From Lepidurus packardi (Eukaryota; Arthropoda; Branchiopoda; Notostraca; Triopsidae), in the NCBI GenBank assembly GCA_023053545.1, contig JAKZAN010000006.1, positions 6,081,001 through 6,145,000 of the forward strand: DNA of 64,000 nt. The letters are read 5' to 3'. The position numbers were made by a program, and so were the translations under genes. Below are positions 2,501-56,348 of the stretch, piece after piece. How positions within the stretch are numbered: the first letter of the stretch is position 1; each line of letters starts with the position of its first letter. Under the pieces are notes generated by a model. The model was given only the letters and a program-made list of their open reading frames with translations, did not search any database and was not told where the DNA came from.

Positions 2501-5074
2501 TTCACCGAATTTTGATAACAGTAAACAAAGCTAGAGCAAGTCGCAAAGGCGAAGAACTCGTCCTTTTTAGACCTGGCTTACTTCAGCGCGTGCAGCGGCT
2601 AAAGTATTACCTAGCCTTGGTCCTCGTGGGATGTCTCCTCACCATGTGAATGCACACGCCAATTTATTAAAAAAAATGCGATCTTAGGATTCTCTCATAT
2701 AATATCTCTCAACTCAAAATTCTTGAAGCTTGAAATATAACAGCTGCTAATTATAGAACATCCAATGCCATTTTAAGTGTGCATGCAGACAAAAAAAGAT
2801 CACGTTCAAAATAGAAGATAATCAACGTCATCATGGTGCGAATTGGCTACTAGTGCTAACAGCTTTACTTGGGCCTGTTTGGCAATTAATCAGCGATTCA
2901 CAGTAGTTATTTCTGCTTAATCTCACTTCTACGCGCAAAGTTAAAAGGGTAGAAACGAGGTCTGAAACCTAGAGTACAAAGAGACAAGGTAATTCTCACT
3001 CATGACATATGTCTTCCGGTATTTTCTTCCGGGAACTTTCACTCACGCATGCGGTGATACCTGTTCTTCGCTTACCGCTAAAGAATTCGGTGGTATGTGC
3101 ATCCATCCCGTCACTTCAAAACCACTCGCTCAAAGGAGTCGTTTTCTTTTTTTAAGAGACAAATTACTTTTCATACATGTAACTGGAGAAAGCTTATCTT
3201 TTTAATCTTTCTGGTTTCGCTCAAAGAATGAGAAAAATGAGTCCTTGAGCTAAATTCTCAGGGTTGCGTTTGTTTGCTTATCGTATCATAGTCAAATTTC
3301 GTTGACACTTTTCTCACGCGTCTTTTAGTTCAACTCTCTTCCCATAATTGTATGAGGGCACCGTGACGCACTTTTCCTAAATTTACTAATGAGGTCTGAC
3401 CCGGTAAGTTTCGCCATGATAATTCCCTCTGATCCCTTTAAGAAAAAGATCCTTATATTTCAATTATTACGAACGCTATGGGATGAAACATCATAGCTCA
3501 AGGAGAAAGCAAGCGATGCAGTCTGGTTCGTTTTTACTACTTTCACAGGCGTGATCCCTTTTCTGTTCTCTGCACGAACCGGAAGATACGAAGCTGAAAA
3601 ATTACAGTGGGCCATTCCTGTGTAGTGAGAATACACAAATTGTCGTCTATTGTATTGTATAGTCTTAAAATCCTATTTCTTCGAAGTTTTCTCAAAAGTA
3701 TTCACCCGGATCCGAATGTTTAATTTCAAAAGTTACGGAAAGTATTGTATTGACGAAAAACTCTTTAAAACTGTAACGAGATTTTTAGTGACTTCACGTC
3801 GTAAATTGCCTTCAAAACACATAGATTTCCGTACGTGCCTTGTATTATATTACAGATTTATAAGTTAAACGTTTTGCCCGAACTTGCAAACGAAAACTGA
3901 TGGGTGTGCGTGCGTGACAAGTAAACTATATGACAAGCAAACCGGTTGCTCACCTTATTTATTGTGTGCATACGTAAACTATTGGCAGCCAGGGGCCACA
4001 TCGGAAATTGTACAAAGCATTGTGCTCACCGTGATGGTAAACAAAAGTGTCCTCATTTTTCTACATGAGATCCCGTTCGAGCCGTCCATTGTGAGGATCT
4101 CACAGTAAAGCATAGAGCGTAGGCATACGACTGTTCCGAAGCAGAGTTCTCCTCGCAACGGAAATCCGGGTTGGTATCCATCGCAAGTACCAAAACTTTC
4201 TCACTTGTCCAAGGTGTGAATCTCGGCATCACCACTGTGCCAATTTGACAAGGGAAGAGGAGGGAGATGATTTTAAATGCTGTACGTGCTTCGAGTGTTG
4301 TTTAGGTGGAAGTGACATACCTCATGTGCAACAAAGTGTGAAACGAGAATTGATATAAACAGTGTTAAACAGTTGAAAATACTGAACACTTCAAAACTAG
4401 TGGCTGGCGTGATGTGAAAATCTTGAACACAGAAAATTGATAACTTATCTGCGGTGCAAGAAGAAGACGCGTTTATGTATACAAGAAGTGTTTATTATCA
4501 TCCAGCATTCATTTAGCGGATCAAATGAAGTGCCAGGTATCAACAGAATGCTTTATTCTGGTATCTGCTTGAAACAATCTTATTTGGCTAACAAACTAGA
4601 CCATAAATTAGACCAAACCAGTTAACCTAATAGCCTACTATCAACGAATAAACTTTCCTGTGGCTTTGCTACCAAGCCCGTGTTCAGCTAACTTTCAATG
4701 CATACATTCATGCAAAACGTATACTCTACACGGATCTTTCACCTTATATTTCAAATCTTATCTCTTTTAATCTTCTGTCTTTGGATGCATGCTTTCGCTA
4801 TGCTCGGTTCTATTCGAGAAAGCGGTACAATAAACCACCATCAGAAAGAAAGGAGCCGAAACTCCCCCGACTGATTTCTTTCCTTCTTCGAGTTTTTCGA
4901 AGTGGCCTACATTTGCGCTCTTGAAGGTAGCCGAAGTTTCACCTTTCATCAGCATGGCCAACGACTGAGTCTTACATTACAAATCGACCTTCTAACCTAC
5001 ACGCTTCCCACCCTTGCACCGTCCCTTTTTATGTTTCCCGTGGTTGGAGTTATTAAAGTCATCTATACACGTTA
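2501..5074. other. Divergent intergenic region, no gene recognised
   Basis: This lies between NSMCE4A (leftward) and the Spatzle-like gene (rightward). No open frame here resembles a known family or carries a splice-consistent structure. It may contain an upstream exon of the Spatzle-like gene, because that gene's first exon contains a strong acceptor-like sequence at 5113, but I could not identify such an exon with confidence. Confidence 0.45.
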
Positions 5075-6580
5075 ATGTTCGCCCTTACCATATATTCTGG
5101 TTTCTACTTGCAGCCTGTTCTCTTCGTGTGTTGCTTCGTCATCATCCTTCCTTTTACTCGGACCCAAAACCCGAAGGCCAACGCAGGCACCCGATTTCGA
5201 TTGCCCAATGTACTTTTCGGGGCCCCTTTTTCTTTATCTAACTTCTTCCAAACGCAGCCTCACCCTACAGGACCAAGAGAAAATACCGCATCTCTGCCAC
5301 GACGGCCATTTCATAAAGCTCCACCTATAGCACCACCGTTACTTGATAATGCCAATCGACATTTAGCCTTGCCACTCGGCACCAATTTAGGCCGACAATC
5401 AACGCAAAGCTACGCACCTTACTATGTACAGTCCCAACCGCCAGGAGAAAGGACCATCCGCGCTCCAAATGTGAACAACAATAATTTCTACCCGTTCCGT
5501 CACCAGCAATCTTTGGAAACCCCACGACCTCAGGCATTCCGACAAAATCAGCAACAACCTAGTTTCCCCAACTCGCAGCTTCCCTTTTCGCCTACCCAGC
5601 CTATCCTGTTGCCACCTTCCTATAAGCAAGGTCCGCCATCGTCTAACAACGTAAACCTTAATCCGAGCTTCAATTCTCCTATCGTACAAAGCGGTTTCTT
5701 TCCTACCGCTCAAGTTAGCGCTCCATTAGAGAACAACCCGGCCCCTCGACATCAATCGAATCTTAACTTTGGACCTCCACAAGCACAGTTGAATGGTTTG
5801 TCTGGTCAACGTATCCCAACCAGGGATTCCGATAACGCTGCTTTTTATGGAACTGATGCCCTGATTGAAAATGGTCTGACCGGCACGAGGTTAACTGGGG
5901 CTCCTAATGTCACGGCGGCTTCTGTTATCGAAAACGTGTTCGTGACTTTAGACCAAGCTAAGAAACTTACCCTCGATTGTGGAGGGAGCAACGATTTAGG
6001 CTACTGCGCCATGACCGAGAAATACCCCAAGTAAAAGTTGTCAACACGGAATATTTAAAACAATAATATCAAAAGCTGCTGTGCTTATTTTTTTTATAGA
6101 TCTACTGTTCAAGAACTAGCTGAGCGATGCCGGGATAAGATACGGCAAATGTATGTGGAAGTACCAGAAGATTTTGAAAGTCTGGGAGAAGGAGGCCCCA
6201 CAGTTGTTTACACAAATTTTTCGCGGTTTAGTAAAGATGTAAAACCTTGGTCATGGGCGACCTACACTAAAGAATCAGCTTGCGATTCGGAACTTCGCTA
6301 CATTCGGCCAGCGTTAGCGCAAGACCGAAATGGCCACTGGATGGTCGTAGTTCAAACGGATGAATTCGTACAGCGTGTGGCTATAGATGTATGCCGCAAT
6401 CCAGACGGAGTCTGCAAAGTGTATACGGATTGCGGGCGGAAATCTAGATGTGTTCAGCGACATAGCTTCCATACTATGATTGCCATGGATCAAGATAATC
6501 CTCTTGAATGCCCTGTAATGAAAGTTTTCAAGTTCCCGACAAGTTGTAACTGTCATGTTGAAACTAAAAAAATTGCTTAA
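5075..6580 (+). CDS. Spatzle-family secreted cystine-knot protein
   Basis: Two exons, 5075-6030 and 6100-6580, join in frame to 478 residues. The 69-bp intron has a T-rich acceptor. Spatzle proteins are secreted proproteins whose C-terminal cystine knot, once released by proteolysis, binds Toll-type receptors in development and immunity. A hydrophobic stretch at about residues 14-29 serves as signal peptide. A long Pro/Gln/Asn-rich prodomain follows, with no family fold visible. The knot lies at about residues 380-472, opening with ACDSELRYIRP and ending FKFPTSCNCHV; it has eight cysteines. The family is clear, but I do not assign a paralogue number. The start is uncertain: TTTCTACTTGCAG ending at 5113 is a good acceptor, in phase 0, so the first 13 residues could be intronic and the true Met could lie upstream. 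No convincing dibasic furin site is visible just before the knot. Confidence 0.9.
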
Positions 6581-7040
6581 GAGCGTTTGCTTGCTATACT
6601 TATACCTGACCCGTCTTCCACATCATTATCATTTCAGCAAATACACGTAAGCAAGGTGTGATAAACCTTAACAACGCTTTACCATTAAAAACCCTTCGGA
6701 CTGAAAAACACGTACCGGTGGTAAGCAAGCCATTTAGAGTTTGTGATTTGTCGTATTTTTGTACTCTTATTTCGTTACCTTTTTTGCACACACAATGTTA
6801 AAATATATTTTTTACTAAATGTACACCAATCTTGATTTGATTTTTTACGAATACGTATAAGGCTACCTGATATTTAAATTGTCTCGTGGTTCCGAAACAA
6901 GTTCCTTCTGGCGGATGCTTATTCTCTTTGAGCAGCTTGATTGGAACGATAATGAATTCTTTCCAGCAGATTCGTTCGCATAAAATATGAAGAGACACAT
7001 TCTCAAACACTGTGATCTGCATTACTGTCGCGATAGTTTG
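6581..7040. other. Spatzle 3' flank, no gene recognised
   Basis: Downstream of the Spatzle stop. An ATTAAA near 6685 is the only poly(A)-signal-like word noted. No other feature is supported before the repeat cluster begins near 7044. Confidence 0.4.
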
Positions 7041-7043
7041 TTG

Positions 7044-7296
7044 AGTTTAGAACGTTCGGTTCAACGATTTTGTGCACGGGTACACACTGAGTGCTGCACA
7101 GGTGTCGCACTGGTTAAGCACTGGTTTGGCACTAGTGCAATACTGGGTTGCGCTGAGTGCTGAACTGGTGAGGAATGTACATGTACTTTAGATCACATTG
7201 TTTCAGAATATTGTTGTTCTCGTTTCTTTCAAATCGGACTTCAAACGAATCTGCTAGAAGCAAAACAAAAATCGTTCGAATCGAATGTTCTAAACT
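7044..7296. mobile_element. Small non-coding inverted-repeat element (MITE-like)
   Basis: The left end (7044-7071, beginning AGTTTAGAACGTTCGGTTC) is the reverse complement of the right end (7267-7296, ending CGAATGTTCTAAACT), with about two mismatches and one gap over 28 bp. The interior has no coding potential but contains degenerate short phrases (GCACTGGTT, GAGTGCTG) near 7090-7165. About 250 bp with terminal inverted repeats suggests a non-autonomous DNA transposon. I could not find a clean target duplication; outer bases read TTGA on the left and TTAA on the right. Confidence 0.55.
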
Positions 7297-7408
7297 TAAA
7301 AAGTACATTGACAGTTATTGTTACGGATCAAAATAACGCCCTTAACAAGTAACTTCAGTTAAAAGGTGATACTATCGAGTCAACTAGCTTAGTGGAAAGA
7401 TGATGTAT

Positions 7409-7513
7409 TGATGCTCGTTGTGGACTGTATTGATGTTCGTTGTGGACTGTATTGATGTTCGTTTGGACTGTATTGATGTTCGTTGTGGACTGTATTGATG
7501 TTCGTTTTGGACT
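7409..7513. repeat. 22-bp minisatellite
   Basis: About five tandem copies of a unit close to GATGTTCGTTGTGGACTGTA plus two bases. Copies differ by single substitutions or by loss of one to three bases. No gene overlaps it. It sits between two copies of the same element end (7267-7296 and 7785-7850). Confidence 0.85.
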
Positions 7514-7784
7514 TTCGGACTGTCTTAGACATGGGGTATATATAGTCGAAAAGTTCAGTTGTATAGTTAACGTCAGAAGTGATGATTCTCTGAAAGGTCA
7601 GATAATGTCTTAGTCTCATGGTTATCGATGACAAGAAGGAATGCAAAGGTCAAGTCACAGTGTAGGTCTCGTCAATTAACCGTATACTGAGTCATGGGTC
7701 AAGGTTCATACAAAAGTCTTCTGTCCTTCCGGGCAATCCGGAACAGTTGTGTAGATCATACTGTTTTAGGGTGTTGGTTTATGT

Positions 7785-7850
7785 TTAATTCATATCGGAC
7801 GTCAAACAAATATACTAGAAGCAAACAAAAATCGTTCGAATCGAACGTTA
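7785..7850. repeat. Second copy of the element end found at 7228-7291
   Basis: The sequence from ATCGGACGTCAAACAAATAT through CGTTCGAATCGAACGTT matches 7228-7291 in the same orientation at roughly 85-90 percent by eye. It corresponds to the right end of the 7044-7296 element. I did not find a matching left end nearby, so this looks like a truncated copy or a segment duplication. Confidence 0.7.
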
Positions 7851-7929
7851 AAACTTTTTGAGATAAATAATATTTTACATGTGCCTTTTGTCCTTGTTTC
7901 ATTTATCCACGTGAAAACTTGATCTACAA

Positions 7930-8106
7930 CAGTGTTTCTCAAAGTGTGCGCCGCGGTAGGCTTGTCGCGAAAAAAAGGGGTGCCGAGAAAGATTCCTATA
8001 ATTTCATAGATGCAAAAATTATATAGGCCTATGTTCTAAGGGGCGCCGTACGAGCTGGGGATACGTTCCGAGGGGCTCCGCGAGCGAAAAAGTTCGAGAA
8101 CCCCTG
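7930..8106. mobile_element. hAT-type MITE with 8-bp target site duplication
   Basis: The element starts CAGTGTTTCTCAAAGTGTG and ends AAGTTCGAGAACCCCTG. The two ends are imperfect inverted repeats of the CAGGGGTTCTCAAACTT type known from hAT elements. The 8-bp word ATCTACAA lies directly on both sides (7922-7929 and 8107-8114), a perfect target site duplication of the length hAT elements make. At 177 bp with no open frame, it is a non-autonomous copy. The intact duplication suggests a fairly recent insertion. Confidence 0.92.
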
Positions 8107-8114
8107 ATCTACAA

Positions 8115-8871
8115 GTTAGTTCATCTTCATTGTTAAAACTGGAAATAAGCGTAAGAGCAGAGAAATTGGTTTATCGTTGATTTGTATTCTATGATGTCAC
8201 CATTAAGTTAACGAAGCAATAAAAATAAAATAAAAAAAAGTACAACGAAAGCGGCCACAGGCCTTACGACGAGGTATAAATTACTCCTTCACAACTTTGA
8301 TTCAGAAACGGTTGAGCACAAGACCAGGTTTCGTTTCTTATACATAGAAGCCCACTCTGCTAATAATTCTAAACGGTAAACAAATTTTCCGTTTCTTCCT
8401 GGACGAGTTTCTAAAAGGTTGCACTTGTTTACAATAGTAAGAAAATCTTGGGACAGTCGATTTTAAAACAAAATGTGCAAAAGAGCTAGAGAACAGCAAC
8501 TTCTCAATAATAATATTAAATAAAACAGGGAGCTGATACGACTTCGCGGAAAAGAGCATATCCGCAAAATACCCCACTCCCCTGACCATCATTTTTGTAT
8601 ATACAGCACGCGGATGGTTGCACTAGAGGAAGAAAATCTGGATTTGGTATAGAAGTGTCCACCGAACTATCTTCTAAAAAAAAAACTAATTAAAAAAATC
8701 TGAAAGTTCTCGAACGAAATGGTCGGCCAGTGGAGCGTTGAGGGGAGGGGCTATGATGGCAATCAGCAATCCATAATAGGTTCTATGGAATGTTGTCGTA
8801 CGTCGTAATAAATTAAGAAACAGTCACTGGTCAAAAGTCTTCGTTTTTTTTCTCGTCTCTGTCTATGTCCT
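8115..8871. other. Intergenic / 3' flank of YGAP gene
   Basis: No coding exon recognised. The stretch includes an A-rich run near 8220-8240. The 3' untranslated region of the minus-strand gene ending at 8872 should lie here, but I saw no clear poly(A) signal on that strand. Confidence 0.4.
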
Positions 8872-11800
8872 TTATGCAGAAGCAGCATCTGAACTTGCTG
8901 CTTCTTGTACTTCAGCGGCTACGGGTTCAAACTCTATGCTATCACTGGGACTTGCTTCCGCTGGTGAAACGTCATTAGATTTGCCGCCTCGCTGGTAAGT
9001 GGGAGCTGGTGCAGTGCCTGGTTGTTGCTGAGGTTGGGCAGGATAGGCTTGGGCTGGAGCGGCGGCAGCATTGATTGGTAGCCAATCAGCTTCGGGCCTG
9101 GCAGCTTGTGCTGAAGCTTCGTAATTGGCGTTGGCTGGGGCAGCTTGCACTACAATGTATGCAATAAGTACACGATTTAAATTTAAGTATTGCAAGATAA
9201 CTTACCGGCAGGGGCGGCATCACTGTAAGCACCGTTCTGGTCATAACCGTTCGGGCCACTAGTGAAAGCAGCACTCACGGGCGATCCGTGAGATTGATGT
9301 TGCTGGTCATAACCGTCTTGGTACTGGGGCTGGTAGCCTTGATCGCCTTCGTAGCCCTCGTCATGCCCAGATTGGTGCCCAGATTGGCCGGATTCTTGGT
9401 AGCCTTGCTGGGAATCTTGGGGTTGTTGGTAAGCAGCACCACTAGCAAGCTCACCGTCAAAAGCAGGTCCTGAATAGTAAGCGGGGGTTTGCTGTGGGTT
9501 GTAAACAGGGGCAGGAGCAGCAGGTTGGCCTTCATAACCGACATTGGAGTAACCTTGAGCTTGACCTTGCTCGCCTTCATATCCGCCAGCGGAGTAAGAA
9601 GGTGTAGCAGCCTGGGCTTGAAAGCCTCCGCTGGGGTTGGAAGGACCAGCAGACTGAAATTCATATCCGCCATTAGAGTAAGGGGTGATTTGGGAATCGT
9701 AGCCAACTTGACTTGGGTAGGCGGGTTGTGCCTCGTAACCGCTGCCAGCTCCTCCGGAGTACGCAGGCTGGGCATCATATCCACCGCTGGAATACGAGCT
9801 AACAGGAGCAGGAGCAGAGTAAGCTGGAGCTGGGCTGTATTCGGGTGCTTGGTAAACGTGCACTGGAGGACGAACACCTTGGTAGATGATGATTGGTGGT
9901 TTGTGATAAGCTTCAGGTGCTGGTACGTAGGTAGGAGCCTTGGATTTGAAGGAGACGGAAGGAGCACCATATGAGCCTTTGGGTGCCTTGGGTGCTTTGG
10001 GTGCTTTGGGGGCCTTTGCTTTGGATTTGCTGGGAGCGCCATAACCGCTGGAAGGTGCACCATATCCGGTGGAAGGGGCACCATATCCGGTGGAAGGGGC
10101 ACCATATCCAGTAGAGGGTGCGCCATATCCAGTAGAAGGTGCGCCATATCCAGTAGAAGGTGCGCCGTATCCGGTAGAGGGTGCGCCATAGGACGCAGAG
10201 GGAGCGCCGTAAGAGTTACCTTTGCCTTTAGATTTAGGGGCAGCATAACCGTCACCACCCTTGCCCTTGGACTTGGGAGCAGAATAGCCACCGTCACCTC
10301 CTTTACCTTTGCCCTTGGACTTCTCCGGAGCTCCATAAGATTGCTGGGGCACAACGTAGACTGGGGGCTGTTGGTAAACATGGACAGGGGGATGTCCAGC
10401 GTAAATGATGTGGGGGGCAGGAGCTTCATAAGAATTGCCTTTGCCTTTAGATTTCTCTGCTTTAGGGGCTTTAGGGGCTTTGGGTGCGGGATAGCCCGTA
10501 GCTTTAGGGGCTTTAGGAGCCTTAGGTGCTTTAGGAGCAGCGTAGCCGTTGGACTTGGGCAACTTAGGCAACTTCAATTTGGGCAACTTGGGCAAGCCGT
10601 ATTCAGACGTAGGGGCCTTGGATTTGCTGGGAGCACCGTACGAACCCTTAGGGGCTTTGGGTGCTTTTGGGGCCTTGGATTTTTCGGGGGCGCCATATCC
10701 ACCCTTGGGTTTCTTGCTAGGGGCACCATACCCGGAGCTTGGAGCACCGTATCCGGAGCTAGGGACGGCGTATCCAGAGCTGGGGTAAGCTGGGGCGTAA
10801 TAGGGCTCAGGCTGGTTTACATAGACGGGTGCGGGAGCAGCAGGAGCGTGTACGTAAACAGGAGCGGGTTGTTCGTAGCCACTATCGTAACCGCTACCAC
10901 CGCTGCTATATCCAGAAGAGGCCGGGGCTATGAATTTTAAACAAACAAGAAATAGAAACTAGTCGATTTTGACTAAGAGTATTTTGGGCTTACCGGAATC
11001 GTAAGCTTGGACAGAAGGAGCAGCATTGTATGCAGTCACTTGGCCGGCTCCATTGTAAGTACCAGAATCGTAAGCAGGAGCGGCAAGGGCATGTTGGTAT
11101 GCACTCACTTGGCCGGCTCCACTGTAAGTTCCAGAATCGTAAGCAGGAGGGGCAGGGGCAGGCGGATATCCAGACGATGCACCAGCAGAATAATCAGAGC
11201 CGCCAGTAGAATAAGAAGGGGGAGCACCTAAATCAATTACAAAATGCATGATTTTCTTCCCAGCCAATGAGTAATAGGATTGCTGTGCTTACCAGTATCG
11301 TAAGCAGGAGCAGGAGGGCTATACGGGGCAGGTTGAGGAGCGTAACCAGCAGAAGCACCAGAATCATAGCCGGAGGCAGCATGACCAGCGCCAGCACCGG
11401 TGTCGTAACCAGTAGCGGCACCACCGGAATAGGCTCCAGCATTATCGTATTCGGAAGAAACGGGAGCAGCGGGCGCATAAGCAGCACCTGCACCTGTAAA
11501 CGTTTTTGACGTTAATGGAATAGTTTCTACAGTTCACGTTCTTTCTTACCAGCATCGTAGGTTGGGGCTTGACCGCTGTAGGCAGCACCAGTATCATATC
11601 CACCAGATGGGGCACTGTAGCTTGGGACAGGGGCAGAGTACGAAGATGATCCATAAGATTGTGCAGGGGGATGAACAACGTGCACGGGGGGATGACTGTC
11701 TGATTGGTAGATGAGTACCGGCAAGTCGTGATGGGGCAATGGTACGTATTTCACGGGAGGAGCTGCTTTGCCCTTACCGCTATCGTAACCACCACCATAG

Positions 11801-12321
11801 CTGGAACCGCCGCTGTATCCATAGCTACCGCTGCCTCCCTTGCCCTTGTTACCTTTGCCTTTGCCTTTGCCGCTTTCGTAGTTCTCCTATGGTATATAGA
11901 AACGAAATTGAGTCCCCAAGTAATTTTAAGAAAAGTAAAAGCTGCCGTTTACAATACTTACAGGAGGTGGGGGAGGGGGGAAGTAGATCACCGGGGGCTT
12001 CTCGCCGGCATAGACAATAGGACCACCATACTTTACGGGTTCGTATGATTGACCTTTTCCTTTGCTTTTTTCACCGCCTTTATCGCCCTTGCCCTTGGAA
12101 GGAGCGCCGTAGCCGGAGGATGGAGCGCCGTAGCTTGCGGAAGGAGCGCCGTAGCCAGTGGATGGAGCACCATAACTAGCAGCCGGAGCGCCGTAACCAG
12201 ATGAGGGTGCACCGTAAGAACTAACCGGAGGAGCACCGTAGCCGCCACCACCTCCACCGCCACCGGCTCCTTTGTCAGCTAAACATTGTTGAAGTGCAAC
12301 TGCAACTAGCAGTAATCGCAT
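8872..12321 (-). CDS. Secreted YGAP-repeat, resilin-like structural protein
   Basis: Six minus-strand exons (12321-11962, 11886-11550, 11493-11293, 11227-10994, 10927-9206, 9149-8872) join in frame to 1043 residues. Introns are 56-75 bp. A signal peptide (MRLLLVAVALQQCLA) is followed by a Gly run and YGAPS-type heptads (seven in exon 1, nine in tandem in exon 5, more scattered). Interspersed are KAPKAPK and KLPKLPK runs, SKGKGKGG blocks, YDSG/YDTG motifs and a hydrophobic module of the form IIYAGHPPVHVYQ occurring about four times. The tail from about residue 952 is less repetitive and acidic at the end. YGAP heptads resemble the elastic repeats of insect resilin, but there is no chitin-binding Rebers-Riddiford domain. 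I infer an extracellular elastic or cuticle-associated matrix protein. Tyrosines could support dityrosine cross-links. Exact tissue and function are unknown. Confidence 0.9.
10030..10213 (-). repeat. 21-bp coding tandem array (YGAPSTG heptads)
   Basis: Nine near-identical 21-bp units within exon 5 of the YGAP gene. They encode successive YGAPSxG or YGAPSxS heptads. The units near the middle are nearly identical at DNA level and differ mostly at third positions, which suggests recent unequal crossover or slippage. Copy number is likely to vary between individuals. Confidence 0.9.
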
Positions 12322-12445
12322 AACCTATTAATAAACATGAAGAATGGTAACTTGAGTTTGGGGATAAAAGAGCGTTGTGGTTCAATCGTGACGTTCTCAA
12401 GCATCGACATTCGGTTTCTTTTATTCTTTCTATTGGTTAACTTGG
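12322..12445 (-). promoter_or_regulatory. Putative proximal promoter of YGAP gene
   Basis: On the minus strand, reading toward the ATG, there is a CCAAT-like AACCAATAG (about 12432-12440). An A/T-rich GAATAAAAGA (about 12419-12428) follows and could act as a TATA-like element, about 100 bp before the start codon. This is an inference from position and sequence only; no start site is proven. A short 5'-untranslated intron ending at the TTAATAG just before the ATG is also possible. Confidence 0.3.
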
Positions 12446-15400
12446 CAATCATACTCAAGCGCCCGTAGATGGATTTTCGTGCTCTTCAGTTCGTGTAACG
12501 GGTCACCTACCTTGAGGGGGTCTTCACTTCGTCTTCTTTTCCCGCGACCTAATTACCTAACGTTGCGTGGATCTTCCTTGCCCACGGCTACTTCTAATGC
12601 AAAAGACCCGTTCTCTTCAACTTGCCCTTTGCACGTCCCTTTTCTGTGAGCGGGACACAACCCACCTGTGCTAGTCTTGGTCCCTCTTCCACTTCCTTGC
12701 CCTCCTTTTTTGGACACCCTCGTTCTGACCTCAAAACCACATTACCCGGTATCCAAAAGTTTGCTGGTCATTCGCCTCTTGCAATGTTGTAACCTAGTAG
12801 TAGCGTCCGTGTATACCTGCGTCGACCTACATTTCTTACCTAGCTATCTGTTTTGCTCGAGTTCACGCAACAGAGCTACGTTTTTCTAGTTCCCTTCAAC
12901 CCCGACCTTGACATTCGCTTATATCGTTAAGGATGCATTGAACGGTAGAAATCGTAAAGTTACTTGACATCCAAAGTGATTCCGGTATTCCTTTTTAAAA
13001 AAATGCAAAATGAAGTAATAAAATGATTATCCGGTTTGGGGTATAAATATTTTGTTTAGGAAAATGTTGGAAAACAAAAAGACATTTGACCGCTGCATCC
13101 GCGAGAAAGCTAAGGTGCCAATGTCTTGGCCAAGGTTGGAATCAGGTATACAGTATACTGGCATTTTGAAGTAATTATTTTTCGCTTCTATTTTTGTATC
13201 TTATTTGATTATTCCTGAAGGCTAGAATCGATAGTATAGCATGAAAGTGAACAAGAAACTAGAGGAAATAATTTGCAATCAGCAAAATGTAAAAATATAA
13301 ATGATGGACTAAAACCGGTACTTTAGAATTGACATAGAAAAAGTTCACGCTTAAAGCAACTACATTCCAGTCAAAATCTCACCAACGCTTAGCGTTACGA
13401 AAAAATGCAAAGTTCACTAAATTTTTTCACAGCCAACTCCTGTCGATTTCAAGAGTGCGTGTATGTGTGTCCTGTACTGTACCTATTAAAGGCCAAGAAT
13501 CCGAACTCTTTTCACAGTACACTATAATAATCACTTATAATACAAAAAGGCCTAAAATATTCCCCATTGGCAATTTGAGATAACCAGTTCGGGCTTTTAA
13601 GTTAGAAATTAAAGGTTATTAAATCAAACTTACGTTTCGTATCCTTGTTTGCGCCATGATAAATAAAAAGAGGAGGTCTTGGCCCCCGCCACACTTTCAA
13701 GTCACAACTATCTTCTGATGGTCCTGTATGGCCTTTTATACCATGGTCCTGCAAAGCCAGTCCTGTAGTGGGCTTGGTTATCCAACGCAAGTAGGCAGGC
13801 CGATGCTGCTTTCAATTCTTACCTCCAAGGAAAAGTTTCAACATAACAAGAATGCAAGTTCTTCGGACCCAAATGGAAGTCCCGCCTTTACAACGAGTAT
13901 GGAGCCAGTTTGAGGCACTGCACTGTACATAGGTGCTGCCGATCCTCACCAGGCATCTCAGTACAGCATATGGTGGCGAAATCGGTGTCCTACAGTGCAA
14001 GAATACATCACAAGGGTTGCTATATCCTAGATGAAATAATTGAGGAAAAAGCCGACTAAATAACATTCGTTGCTTTTTTCCTAGTCTACCTATAAAAAGC
14101 TATTCATCCTATGACTCCTTCGGTTCATAGAATTTTGGTGTCAGTCATCGATCAGGCCATAAAATGAGATTTTTTTTGGTCCTCCAATCCGTTAAATCCG
14201 CATACCATACAGTGACTGCACCAACACACTCCACGTGGAACACTCTCCTCAGCCAGATTTTTTCTTTCTCGCAAGTTTAAGCTAGTGAAACCCGAGAAAG
14301 CGTCACGTGCGTCCTTAATGTCCTGATGAAAGTTTCCGAATTTTCTCCAAATTATTCTTGCAGTAATTGTATTGCGATATAGGTACTACAATGTATAATA
14401 TGCCTCATTTCATCTCTTCTGCAGAAGATAGATTTGGAACATGGAGTAACACAGTTCGTTGTTCATTTTGGGTGCCAAATGCCATGAGGCACAAGGATGC
14501 TCTACTTCACCACCATTGGCTTTTACTCGGCCAGGTTAACCAGGAAGTCGGCGTTGGCTGTAGAGTCTTGCCGCTCGAGAGTTTAATACATACACTCACG
14601 TCGTCTTGACCTTGATCTACTCTAAAACAATTATCTTCCTAAATTTTGCCATTGACAGTGCTGAAGTCGCCCCGCAGAAACTTTGATCGCTACAGGGCCA
14701 GGGGAAGGTGTAAAAAAGCAGCACATACTACTACTGTACTACTACAAACATGCAAAACAAGCTCCAATAGCGATTCTCTTTCTTTCGAAATGATGACTCG
14801 GAGCAACGGTTGAGCTATTTTAAGTTTCACTGGCAGATGTGCAACCTCATTTTATTACGGTGGGCACAATGCAGTCTTTTTTTCGTTGAGAAAATATGCA
14901 ATACCTAATGAACAATAGATGGTCTAATTCTACAAATTGTGCCAACTTCTAATGGTACAGCTTACTGTTGCGTTCAATTGTGAGCATTTTGTAAGTATAA
15001 AATATACTCAGTAATCCTATGAAATTTGTCGATCTAAATTATTTGGCCTTACAGAGAGTAATCCAGTTCATGCTTTACTGGGTAATGTAACTCCTTACTT
15101 TTATTCCCCTGGAGAAAACAAGGAAACTGTGAGAAGTTGGAAGCGCCAAATTCGCCAAATGTGCAGTCTTTATTAAAGTTGAAGAGAAAGCAGTGACCAA
15201 ATAACGCCGCAATCATGGTTCCGGAGAAAAGAACCTGAGTAAGCATCATGCAATGGCAATACATCCGTGTTTTTTTTACACTCGAGTTTGGGTCATGCTT
15301 TGCAATGCGGATGAGGAACTATTTCACTGCGTTAGCGAAAGTGGGTTTATAAGATAAACAAACTAAGGACATATCTCTTAACAGTAGTGGAGTGGTTTTC

Positions 15401-54776: not shown

Positions 54777-56348
54777 ATGACAACAATGAATTCGTCTCAC
54801 GGGGATATGGGTACTGTGCCCATGGCTTCCCTGAGTTTTGCCTCCTTCGCCGATTCTGCCAATTTTACCATGAGCAGTGGCACGGACGAGGGCTTTTTGG
54901 CAAGCTCCCCGGAAGGTTTTGCCGAGGACCAGACGGCAACGTGGTTCAGCATTACGATCTTGGTTCTGAAAACGTTGATCATGGCCCTGATCATTGTTTG
55001 CGCCGTGTTTGGCAACCTACTCGTAATCGTCTCCGTAATGCGGCATCGAAAGCTGCGGATTATTACCAATTACTTCTTGGTATCCTTGGCACTGGCTGAT
55101 ATCTTGGTGGCTTTGGTTGCCATGGGCTTTAATGCTTCTGTGGTGATCCTGGGGAAATGGATATTTAGCTACCGTATGTGTGACGTCTGGAACTCTTTTG
55201 ATGTGTACTTCTGTACGGTGTCCATTTTGCATTTGTGTTGCATCAGCGTCGACCGGTACTATGCCATTTCCCGTCCCCTCATGTACCCTCTGAAAATCAC
55301 GGGCAAAGTAGTCGCTATAATGTTGACCAACGTGTGGATTTGGCCCGCGGCAATCTCATTCTTGCCCATCTTTATGGGATGGTATACGACGAAAGAGCAC
55401 CTCGAATTCCGGGCCGAGCATCTGGATCGCTGCGATTTCGTGGTCAACAAAGTGTACGCCATCATCTCTTCCAGCGTTTCCTTCTGGATTCCTTGCACCA
55501 TCATGGTCTTTACCTACTATCGCATCTATCAAATGGCTTCCCATCAAGAAAAGATGCTTTTGCGAACTGCAGATGCTGCGTACATCCTCCGCCAGCAGAA
55601 CCAACGTCGAAGCGAAGAAATGGAACATCACCAAATTCATCACATTCAGCACGCTCGTCCACCCCAACCGGACATTCTCATCACCGCTGCTGCTGCTGGC
55701 AGCGATACGGCCACAATGAACAGCACTAAAGCCGCCGAATCTCGGCACCCAGCCCCAGTGCTGAGTACGAACGGAACCGAAATTCAAAAAATTAATTTGA
55801 TGGTGAACGTTCCGGGGGCTAAATCTCCCCATAGACTCTCCGTGTCCGGGGCTGCAGAGAACACGTTGCTGGTAGAGAAAGAAGACCCGGACTGGCACTC
55901 GACCCCTACCAAAGACCGCCATTTGATGAAGTTGAAACGAGAGCACAAAGCTGCCCGTACGTTAGGGATCATCATGGGAGTTTTTGTGCTGTGTTGGTGT
56001 CCGTTTTTCATGTGGTACCTGATCATCCCACTGTGTGGCGATAGTTGCGAAAACCCCGCCATTGTGGTTGAAGTGATGTTCTGGATTGGCTACTTCAATT
56101 CCACGTTGAATCCCCTTATCTACGCCTACTTCCATCGAGACTTTCGAGAAGCTTTTAAGAGGACGTTAATTTGTGTGTTTTGCTGGTGCGTGCCTAGGCA
56201 GCCTGACGCAGCGTACGCTCATATCTTGCGGACAAGTTTAGCCCACGCTTCTGACACGCGAATACGGCACACCAGCGGCGATACTATTTCTGGCATTGAA
56301 CGGATAGATAGCAAAAGACCCAGCACTTGTGCGGTCCATAAACTTTGA
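54777..56348 (+). CDS. Octopamine beta-type receptor (GPCR)
   Basis: A single uninterrupted frame encodes 523 residues with seven membrane segments. Beta-octopamine receptors couple to Gs and raise cAMP in neurons and muscle. Class A markers are present: Asn80 in VFGNLLVI, Asp108 in SLALADILVAL, Cys135 and Cys219 for the extracellular disulfide, amine-binding Asp142 in NSFDVYFC, DRY at 159-161, a serine cluster in TM5 (ISSSVSFWIP, about 230-239), CWCPFF at 406-411 and NPLIY at 445-449. HKAARTLGIIMGVF at the base of TM6 and FNSTLNPLIYAYFHRDFREAF closely fit insect Oct-beta receptors. NSS and NFT near the N-terminus are possible glycosylation sites. The third intracellular loop is long (about 252-390), His/Gln/Ala-rich. 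I do not assign the beta subtype. The start could also be the second Met, at 54786. The coding region has no intron, unlike its multi-exon neighbours. Confidence 0.93.
   Translation: MTTMNSSHGDMGTVPMASLSFASFADSANFTMSSGTDEGFLASSPEGFAEDQTATWFSITILVLKTLIMALIIVCAVFGNLLVIVSVMRHRKLRIITNYFLVSLALADILVALVAMGFNASVVILGKWIFSYRMCDVWNSFDVYFCTVSILHLCCISVDRYYAISRPLMYPLKITGKVVAIMLTNVWIWPAAISFLPIFMGWYTTKEHLEFRAEHLDRCDFVVNKVYAIISSSVSFWIPCTIMVFTYYRIYQMASHQEKMLLRTADAAYILRQQNQRRSEEMEHHQIHHIQHARPPQPDILITAAAAGSDTATMNSTKAAESRHPAPVLSTNGTEIQKINLMVNVPGAKSPHRLSVSGAAENTLLVEKEDPDWHSTPTKDRHLMKLKREHKAARTLGIIMGVFVLCWCPFFMWYLIIPLCGDSCENPAIVVEVMFWIGYFNSTLNPLIYAYFHRDFREAFKRTLICVFCWCVPRQPDAAYAHILRTSLAHASDTRIRHTSGDTISGIERIDSKRPSTCAVHKL

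Follow-up and report, generated by a model that had tools for sequence, protein, structure and literature searches.

The described proteins that come closest to the gene studied here are those of the Muc91C type (Drosophila CG7709, Monochamus MaMuc91C, Anopheles AGAP002367) and pro-resilin (Drosophila CG15920). According to PMC10063229, Muc91C contains 17 copies of an A repeat (PSSSYGAPA(S)) and 11 of a B repeat (GGYSSGGN), lacks an R&R domain, and on knockdown leaves the tracheae less elastic; the elastic repeats of pro-resilin also bear YGAP (GGRPSDSYGAPG; PMC3233583). In Daphnia pulex there are 646 matches to a Tyr-bearing Motif 2, which includes the resilin repeat and reaches its highest number in mucin 91C (PMC2932725). 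Here we analyze a 64,000-nucleotide stretch of the Lepidurus packardi genome (GenBank assembly GCA_023053545.1, contig JAKZAN010000006.1, positions 6,081,001 to 6,145,000; hereafter the window), in which a minus-strand gene (12321-8872) encodes a YGAP-repeat protein with recurring hydrophobic modules. Judged on the sequence only, six exons join into one open frame of 1043 residues plus stop, so that the coordinates, strand and length given by an initial annotation of this DNA are correct. By a slight preponderance, we favor the reading that this is a secreted, mostly disordered, resilin-like structural protein of the arthropod extracellular matrix, in which the modules would act as association or cross-linking nodes; the cuticle or another apical matrix is its most likely location.

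The resilin-like YGAPS heptads noted in the initial annotation are present: 18 of the 22 YGAP units read YGAPS, in contexts such as SSGYGAPS, STGYGAPS and SASYGAPS, Gly often preceding Tyr in place of Ser. By eye, the protein follows the A repeat of Muc91C, given as PS(Q)SSYGAP(A)S (PMC10063229), and has one stretch (GYSSGGSGYDSG) at most faintly similar to the B repeat. It shares with the Muc91C-type proteins the S-S-Y-G-A-P-(A/S) arrays, an N-terminus that looks signal-like by eye and the lack of an R&R domain (Pfam, E≤1); in contrast, its PPVHVY module and its KAPKAP and KGKG blocks go unmentioned in the available part of their description (PMC10063229). By analogy, the protein may work like the Muc91C-type resilin-like proteins without R&R domain, which the repeat type and the missing domain fit. 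Pro-resilin resembles it in its YGAP-bearing repeats but differs in that the window protein lacks the R&R domain (Chitin_bind_4) and has mostly 7-residue units and Lys-rich blocks. An assignment to pro-resilin or to the CPR cuticular proteins was rejected because the defining R&R consensus is absent (Pfam, E≤1), in a genome with PF00379 matches in at least 150 places (150 of 266 candidates scored). Since Motif 2 includes the resilin repeat (PMC2932725), the YGAP units are probably of the Motif 2 kind. Among the literature matches listed for SYGAP, KAPKAP and GYGAPS, the relevant ones, going by their titles and the beginnings of their abstracts, are about resilin and its mimetics, Muc91C or CPR proteins of Anopheles.

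Most units lie in two arrays with a period of mostly 7 residues, one of 7 units (12091..12240, minus strand, residues 28-77) and one of 9 units, several almost identical at the DNA level (10023..10211, minus strand, residues 617-679). Between adjacent heptads, spaced by 7 residues, 32 of the 80 shared codons differ (0.40), compared with 556 of 924 over all YGAP pairs (0.60; expected 0.61), and part of the array therefore looks recently duplicated. The protein as a whole is rich in Ala (16.5%), Gly (15.5%), Pro (14.0%), Ser (12.5%), Tyr (10.2%) and Lys (6.0%), with 2.4% Thr and a single Cys, which lies within the signal-like N-terminus. Its residues are segregated: except for Lys 17 and Lys 1008, Lys is confined to residues 76-166 and 449-720; residues 387-760 are basic (46 Lys and Arg versus 12 Asp and Glu) and residues 761-1043 acidic and Gln-rich (3 Lys and Arg, 30 Asp and Glu, 38 Gln).

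With its hydrophobic modules, the protein is an unusual form of a known type. About four PPVHVY copies had been proposed, and all four quoted sequences were located on the minus strand, but PPVHVYQ itself occurs only in the last two: module 1 (IVYAGEKPPVIYF, 11980..12018, residues 102-114) reads PPVIYF, module 2 (LIYQSDSHPPVHVVH, 11671..11715, residues 178-192) reads PPVHVVH, module 3 (IIYAGHPPVHVYQ, 10371..10409, residues 551-563) reads PPVHVYQ and is followed by QPPVYVVPQQ, and module 4 (IIYQGVRPPVHVYQ, 9849..9890, residues 724-737) reads PPVHVYQ. We described them by the pattern [IVL][IVL]Y-x(2,7)-PPV-x-[VYI], which was drawn up from the copies, so that its statistics flatter. With this pattern the protein has four copies; at least one was found in 5 of 20,000 composition shuffles and in 96 of 20,000 first-order Markov sequences, and four in none of either. 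The module cores (55 residues together) hold 18 of the 61 Val, Ile and Leu residues, a number equaled in none of 20,000 random placements, and 6 of the 17 His, counted after residue 16, which 49 placements equaled. When each core was extended by its 8 upstream residues (93 residues together, an extension picked once His residues had been seen there), the segments held 23 of 61 Val, Ile and Leu (0 of 20,000) and 10 of 17 His (14 of 20,000; fraction 0.00055 in an earlier run). Enrichment in Pro was marginal in these segments (20 of 146; fraction 0.053), and they contain little Gly (5 of 162).

The modules also tend to stand behind Lys-rich sequence. Upstream of the four copies, Lys totals 18 within 25 residues, 26 within 40 and 40 within 60, where random means are 6.3, 10.3 and 16.1; the fractions of random placements reaching these totals are 0.019, 0.021 and 0.011. 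The Lys-Pro-Ala and Lys-Gly runs of the initial annotation are indeed found, as KAPKAP and KGKG: a block with KAPKAPKAPK, KLPKLPKLK and KSKGKG (10440..10715, minus strand) lies ahead of module 3, and a second (KSKAKAPKAPKAPKAPK...KSK; 9939..10028, minus strand) ahead of module 4. Counted within 25 residues for copies 1 to 4, there are 6, 3, 6 and 3 Lys before the module and 5, 0, 4 and 0 after it. The unit is perhaps better called a cassette, made of a Lys-rich run, a Tyr/Pro spacer and the hydrophobic module, an order that is clear in copies 2 and 4 and blurred in copies 1 and 3.

We compared the copies for signs of age and constraint. Over 13 aligned positions, identical residues number 4 (copies 1 and 2), 7 (1 and 3), 6 (1 and 4), 7 (2 and 3), 8 (2 and 4) and 11 (3 and 4). 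Six of the 11 residues shared by copies 3 and 4 use different synonymous codons (6.1 expected from the codon usage of the gene), and because of this the two look old yet alike and not freshly duplicated. Summed over the six pairs, 25 of 43 codons differ, with 25.4 expected. That copies 3 and 4 retained their residues hints at constraint, though the numbers are small and fall short of proof.

Searches for known domains and folds returned little. Pfam gave no family for the whole protein at E≤1, chitin-binding domains included, which bears out the view that no known chitin-binding domain is present. Five module and array fragments likewise matched no Pfam family at E≤10, a search in which the HMMER filters may hide weak matches, and the statement that no named domain has this module pattern agrees with both results. 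The same fragments distinguish the protein from the GYR and YLP motifs (Cornman 2010; PF02756, PF02757), which are also short Tyr-bearing motifs of cuticle or matrix proteins (PMC2932725) but gave no match in the module or YGAP array fragments at that threshold and with those filters. A search of PDB by sequence, with the module 4 region only, gave no chain at E≤10. An AlphaFold model of residues 530-760 from the single sequence had a mean predicted local distance difference test score of 51.5 and a predicted template modeling score of 0.14; in 10-residue blocks, module 3 scored 65 and 72, module 4 63 and 62, and the YGAP array 35 to 47. The model fits a disordered protein in which the modules are slightly more definite, and the hairpin considered below is not seen in it. 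Literature searches with PPVHV, VHVYQ and PPVHVY gave, among the matches listed, none on cuticle by title or abstract; combining YGAP with cuticle and Daphnia, or resilin with crustacean, lysine-rich and repeat, gave no match.

We then turned to the genome (108,557,554 bases in 344 contigs, the window being C5:6081001-6145000), in a limited first pass that skipped common words, so that absence of the module elsewhere is provisional. At E≤10, a 44-residue query around module 4 matched this gene and one other place, C179:53587 (E 0.67, 39% identity over 38 residues), and a module 2 query gave the gene itself and a Tyr/Ala/Pro-repeat gene on C6 (E 4.8). A degenerate PPVHVYQ pattern had two matches, both in modules of this gene, and none in a backward control; an IY-x-G-x-PPV pattern had four, namely modules 3 and 4 and two others, and its backward control had two. 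Both of the others were set aside as chance: at C5:5346372 the frame is rich in stops, one of which follows IYEGRRPPVL, and at C3:9101162 there is no PPV in frame. Viral contigs, when scanned, yielded no relative, as none of 20 pattern stretches was confirmed.

A similar gene, at about C3:7418907-7422813 (L039), has SYGAPS, KAPKAP and KGKG in common with the window gene (E 6.0e-4, 61% identity; E 4.7e-4, 65% with a composite query) and, like it, a signal-like N-terminus. Its hydrophobic stretch YPVVLVYDTPIAPP, followed by PAQPSYG, could be a half-module; unlike the window gene, it lacks the PPV-x-V half and has a long Gln/Pro-rich C-terminal part. As a genome query, its half-module exon matched only itself. 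The intron ahead of its KGKG exon is of phase 1 versus phase 0 in the window gene, and because of this difference shared descent of that exon and exon 2 of the window gene was dropped and no shared exon is claimed. The C-terminal part of this gene (C3:7416000-7423000, locus positions 2908-6813) is very long and rich in Gln, Pro and Tyr, and units including QQVVYEQTEAPAYQP and QVIEQQWVQQTEAP are repeated in it in tandem. Other Tyr/Ala/Pro-repeat frames occur at C3:2640346 (SYGAPRP, PKYEAPKYE), C6:6343886 (YSAPAP), C1:9099564 (SYGAPAS) and C5:2156614, which combines SYEAPKP repeats with an R&R domain. By this comparison the YGAP part is ordinary for this genome.

How might such a protein work? 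On the favored reading, the YGAPS heptads would provide an elastic chain together with tyrosines for dityrosine bonds, and the four cassettes (Lys-rich run, Tyr/Pro spacer and IIYQG..PPVHVYQ module, with His in copies 2 to 4) would be its nodes. Two short, beta-prone strands in the module, IIIY and VHVY, might pair mutually or with a partner, while His, with nearby Lys and Tyr, could offer places at which quinone or tyrosine cross-links form. In cuticular cross-linking, no residue is named more often than His, and Lys and Tyr are also recovered bound (PMC5395146). The basic cassette region might in addition attract the acidic, Gln-rich C-terminal part electrostatically. Node function is plausible, given that aliphatic residues gather in the modules, joined by His in all but copy 1, and that Lys-rich sequence precedes them; it draws on composition, position and two well-matched copies, and elasticity, strands, association, cross-linking and location are all inferred from the sequence. 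In a bolder version, which we hold to be unlikely, IIYQG-x(1-3)-PPVHVYQ would be an unnamed, conserved matrix-assembly motif, a mostly His-bearing hydrophobic hairpin placed after a Lys-rich run that networks a resilin-like elastomer without a chitin-binding domain. If the module were conserved, arthropod elastic proteins would have a further means of anchoring, in addition to the R&R domain and dityrosine bonds, and the module would provide a short peptide, open to testing, from which elastic networks might be built; if not, the gene would be one more low-complexity cuticle or matrix protein.

The proposal that the module is a cross-linking or binding cassette spaced between elastic blocks stands in part. 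The concentration of aliphatic residues and His behind Lys and the conservation of copies 3 and 4 under scrambled codons speak for the cassette; the spacing and the match of only 4 of 13 residues between copies 1 and 2 do not. Of the four copies, only copy 3 is closely flanked by elastic units on both sides (YGAP at 474 and 575). Copy 1 follows an array, with the last YGAP at 71 and the next at 437, copy 2 adjoins no YGAP array and copy 4 lies beyond the last YGAP unit, at 697. A number of results weigh against the reading of the modules as nodes. Copy 1 lacks His even in its extended segment and copy 2 contributes five of the ten His counted in the extended segments; the modules, with or without the extension, show no enrichment in Tyr (6,536 to 11,328 of 20,000 random placements do as well), and Lys is plentiful downstream of modules 1 and 3 too, so that the order with Lys first has no more than moderate support. 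Only 2 of the 8 codons shared by copies 2 and 4 differ, versus 4.6 expected, unlike old, codon-scrambled copies. The AlphaFold model of residues 530-760 has no secondary structure, leaving the proposed strands without its support; sequence queries and degenerate patterns found, provisionally, no full module elsewhere in the genome; and the authors of PMC5395146 were unable to identify a His, Tyr or Gln peptide that was absent consistently.

Copies 1 and 2, finally, have diverged, matching at 4 to 8 of 13 residues in the five pairs that include either, and this, with the irregular spacing and flanks, suits an explanation by which a low-complexity protein underwent internal duplications long ago and the modules are what is left of them, under weak constraint for hydrophobicity only and with no specific partner or cross-link. 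The half-module at most (YPVVLVYDTPIAPP) of the similar C3 gene points the same way, and drift alone can homogenize repeats according to Cornman (PMC2932725). We nevertheless judge this explanation unlikely, as copies 3 and 4 agree at 11 of 13 residues although their codons are scrambled to the degree seen in unrelated ones, and as copies 2 to 4 are enriched in His. Quite unlikely, in our estimate, is that the protein is a gland product (an egg coating, cement or silk-like thread) and not cuticular, its hydrophobic, Lys/Tyr-rich cassettes serving adhesion: the Lys/Gly and Lys/Ala/Pro runs and the basic/acidic split would suit an adhesive, but Tyr/Ala/Pro repeats occur together with a cuticle R&R domain in this genome (C5:2156614), and a literature search on cement protein, YGAP, resilin-like and crustacean gave insect resilin alone, a weak point as open papers only were covered.

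That the module is an unrecognized chitin-binding motif standing in for the R&R domain seems very unlikely. The protein matches no Pfam chitin-binding domain, and the module, aromatic and mostly also bearing His, lies in what looks from its sequence like a beta-prone stretch, both of which would agree with such a role; against it, the module is very short, the module 4 region found no PDB chain and the four module fragments no Pfam family, and resilin-like proteins without an R&R domain are already known (PMC10063229). We give hardly any weight to the idea that the exons come from separate genes or reflect an assembly artefact, given a frame that stays open through all five junctions at consensus splice sites and a KGKG and YGAP vocabulary common to exons on both sides of the junctions.

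The exons themselves, all on the minus strand, divide the protein into distinct parts. Exon 1 (11962..12321) encodes the hydrophobic signal-peptide core, 7 YGAP units, a Lys/Gly block and module 1, and exon 2 (11550..11886) a Lys/Gly block and module 2. Exons 3 (11293..11493; YDTG and YDSG) and 4 (10994..11227; YDSGTY..GAGQV repeats) are Tyr/Ala/Gly-rich and free of Lys. The large exon 5 (9206..10927) holds KAPKAP, KLPKLP and KGKG blocks, 15 YGAP units, modules 3 and 4 and the beginning of the acidic, Gln-rich C-terminal part, and the last coding exon, exon 6 (8872..9149), encodes an Ala/Pro/Gln-rich C-terminus and the stop. The five introns are all GT-AG, every donor reads GTAAG, and their phases are 0, 1, 1, 1 and 1.

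At the N-terminus, a hydrophobic core (MRLLLVAVALQQCLA) looks signal-like by eye, from which we infer that the protein is secreted. A candidate first coding exon lies further upstream (13657-13634, minus strand), consistent in frame and splice sites: its 24 bases are open and encode MAQTRIRN, and a GTAAGT donor comes next. This exon, and the TATA-like GGTATAAAAGG found at 13742, lie about 1.3 kb upstream of the start at 12321, and a plausible acceptor (ATTAATAG followed by GTT) lies just ahead of that start. Phase-0 joining yields MAQTRIRNVMRLLLVAVALQQCLADKG, with MAQTRIRN running into VMRLLLVAVALQQCLA at the junction. This exon is probably the true start and would complete the signal peptide, for a protein of about 1052 residues; exon 1 as given above would then begin at 12324.

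Several further observations were made on the way. On contig C3, at about 0.4-2.8 Mb, R&R cuticle-protein matches form a very large cluster with many near-equal scores, which suggests recent amplification. The open frame with SYGAPAS repeats on C1 (L018, C1:9098064-9101225, locus positions 805-2067) also has a hydrophobic stretch that looks membrane-like and a tail with Cys, which together are odd in a matrix protein. COX1 matches with TGA and other stops were found on C1, C2, C4, C5, C6, C21 and C38, those of the large contigs being perhaps nuclear mitochondrial copies, and COX1 frames without stops on C43, C52 and C214, which may be bacterial. The best of the TGA-bearing matches, on the large contig C6, contains one more stop when read with the mitochondrial code and looks arthropod-like by eye. 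Within the window, neighboring open frames at 5057-6580 (plus strand) encode a long Pro/Gln-rich part and then a Cys-rich stretch, which we take to resemble a Spaetzle-type cystine knot, and a 523-residue frame at 54777-56348 (plus strand) looks by eye like a G-protein-coupled receptor of the biogenic-amine type.

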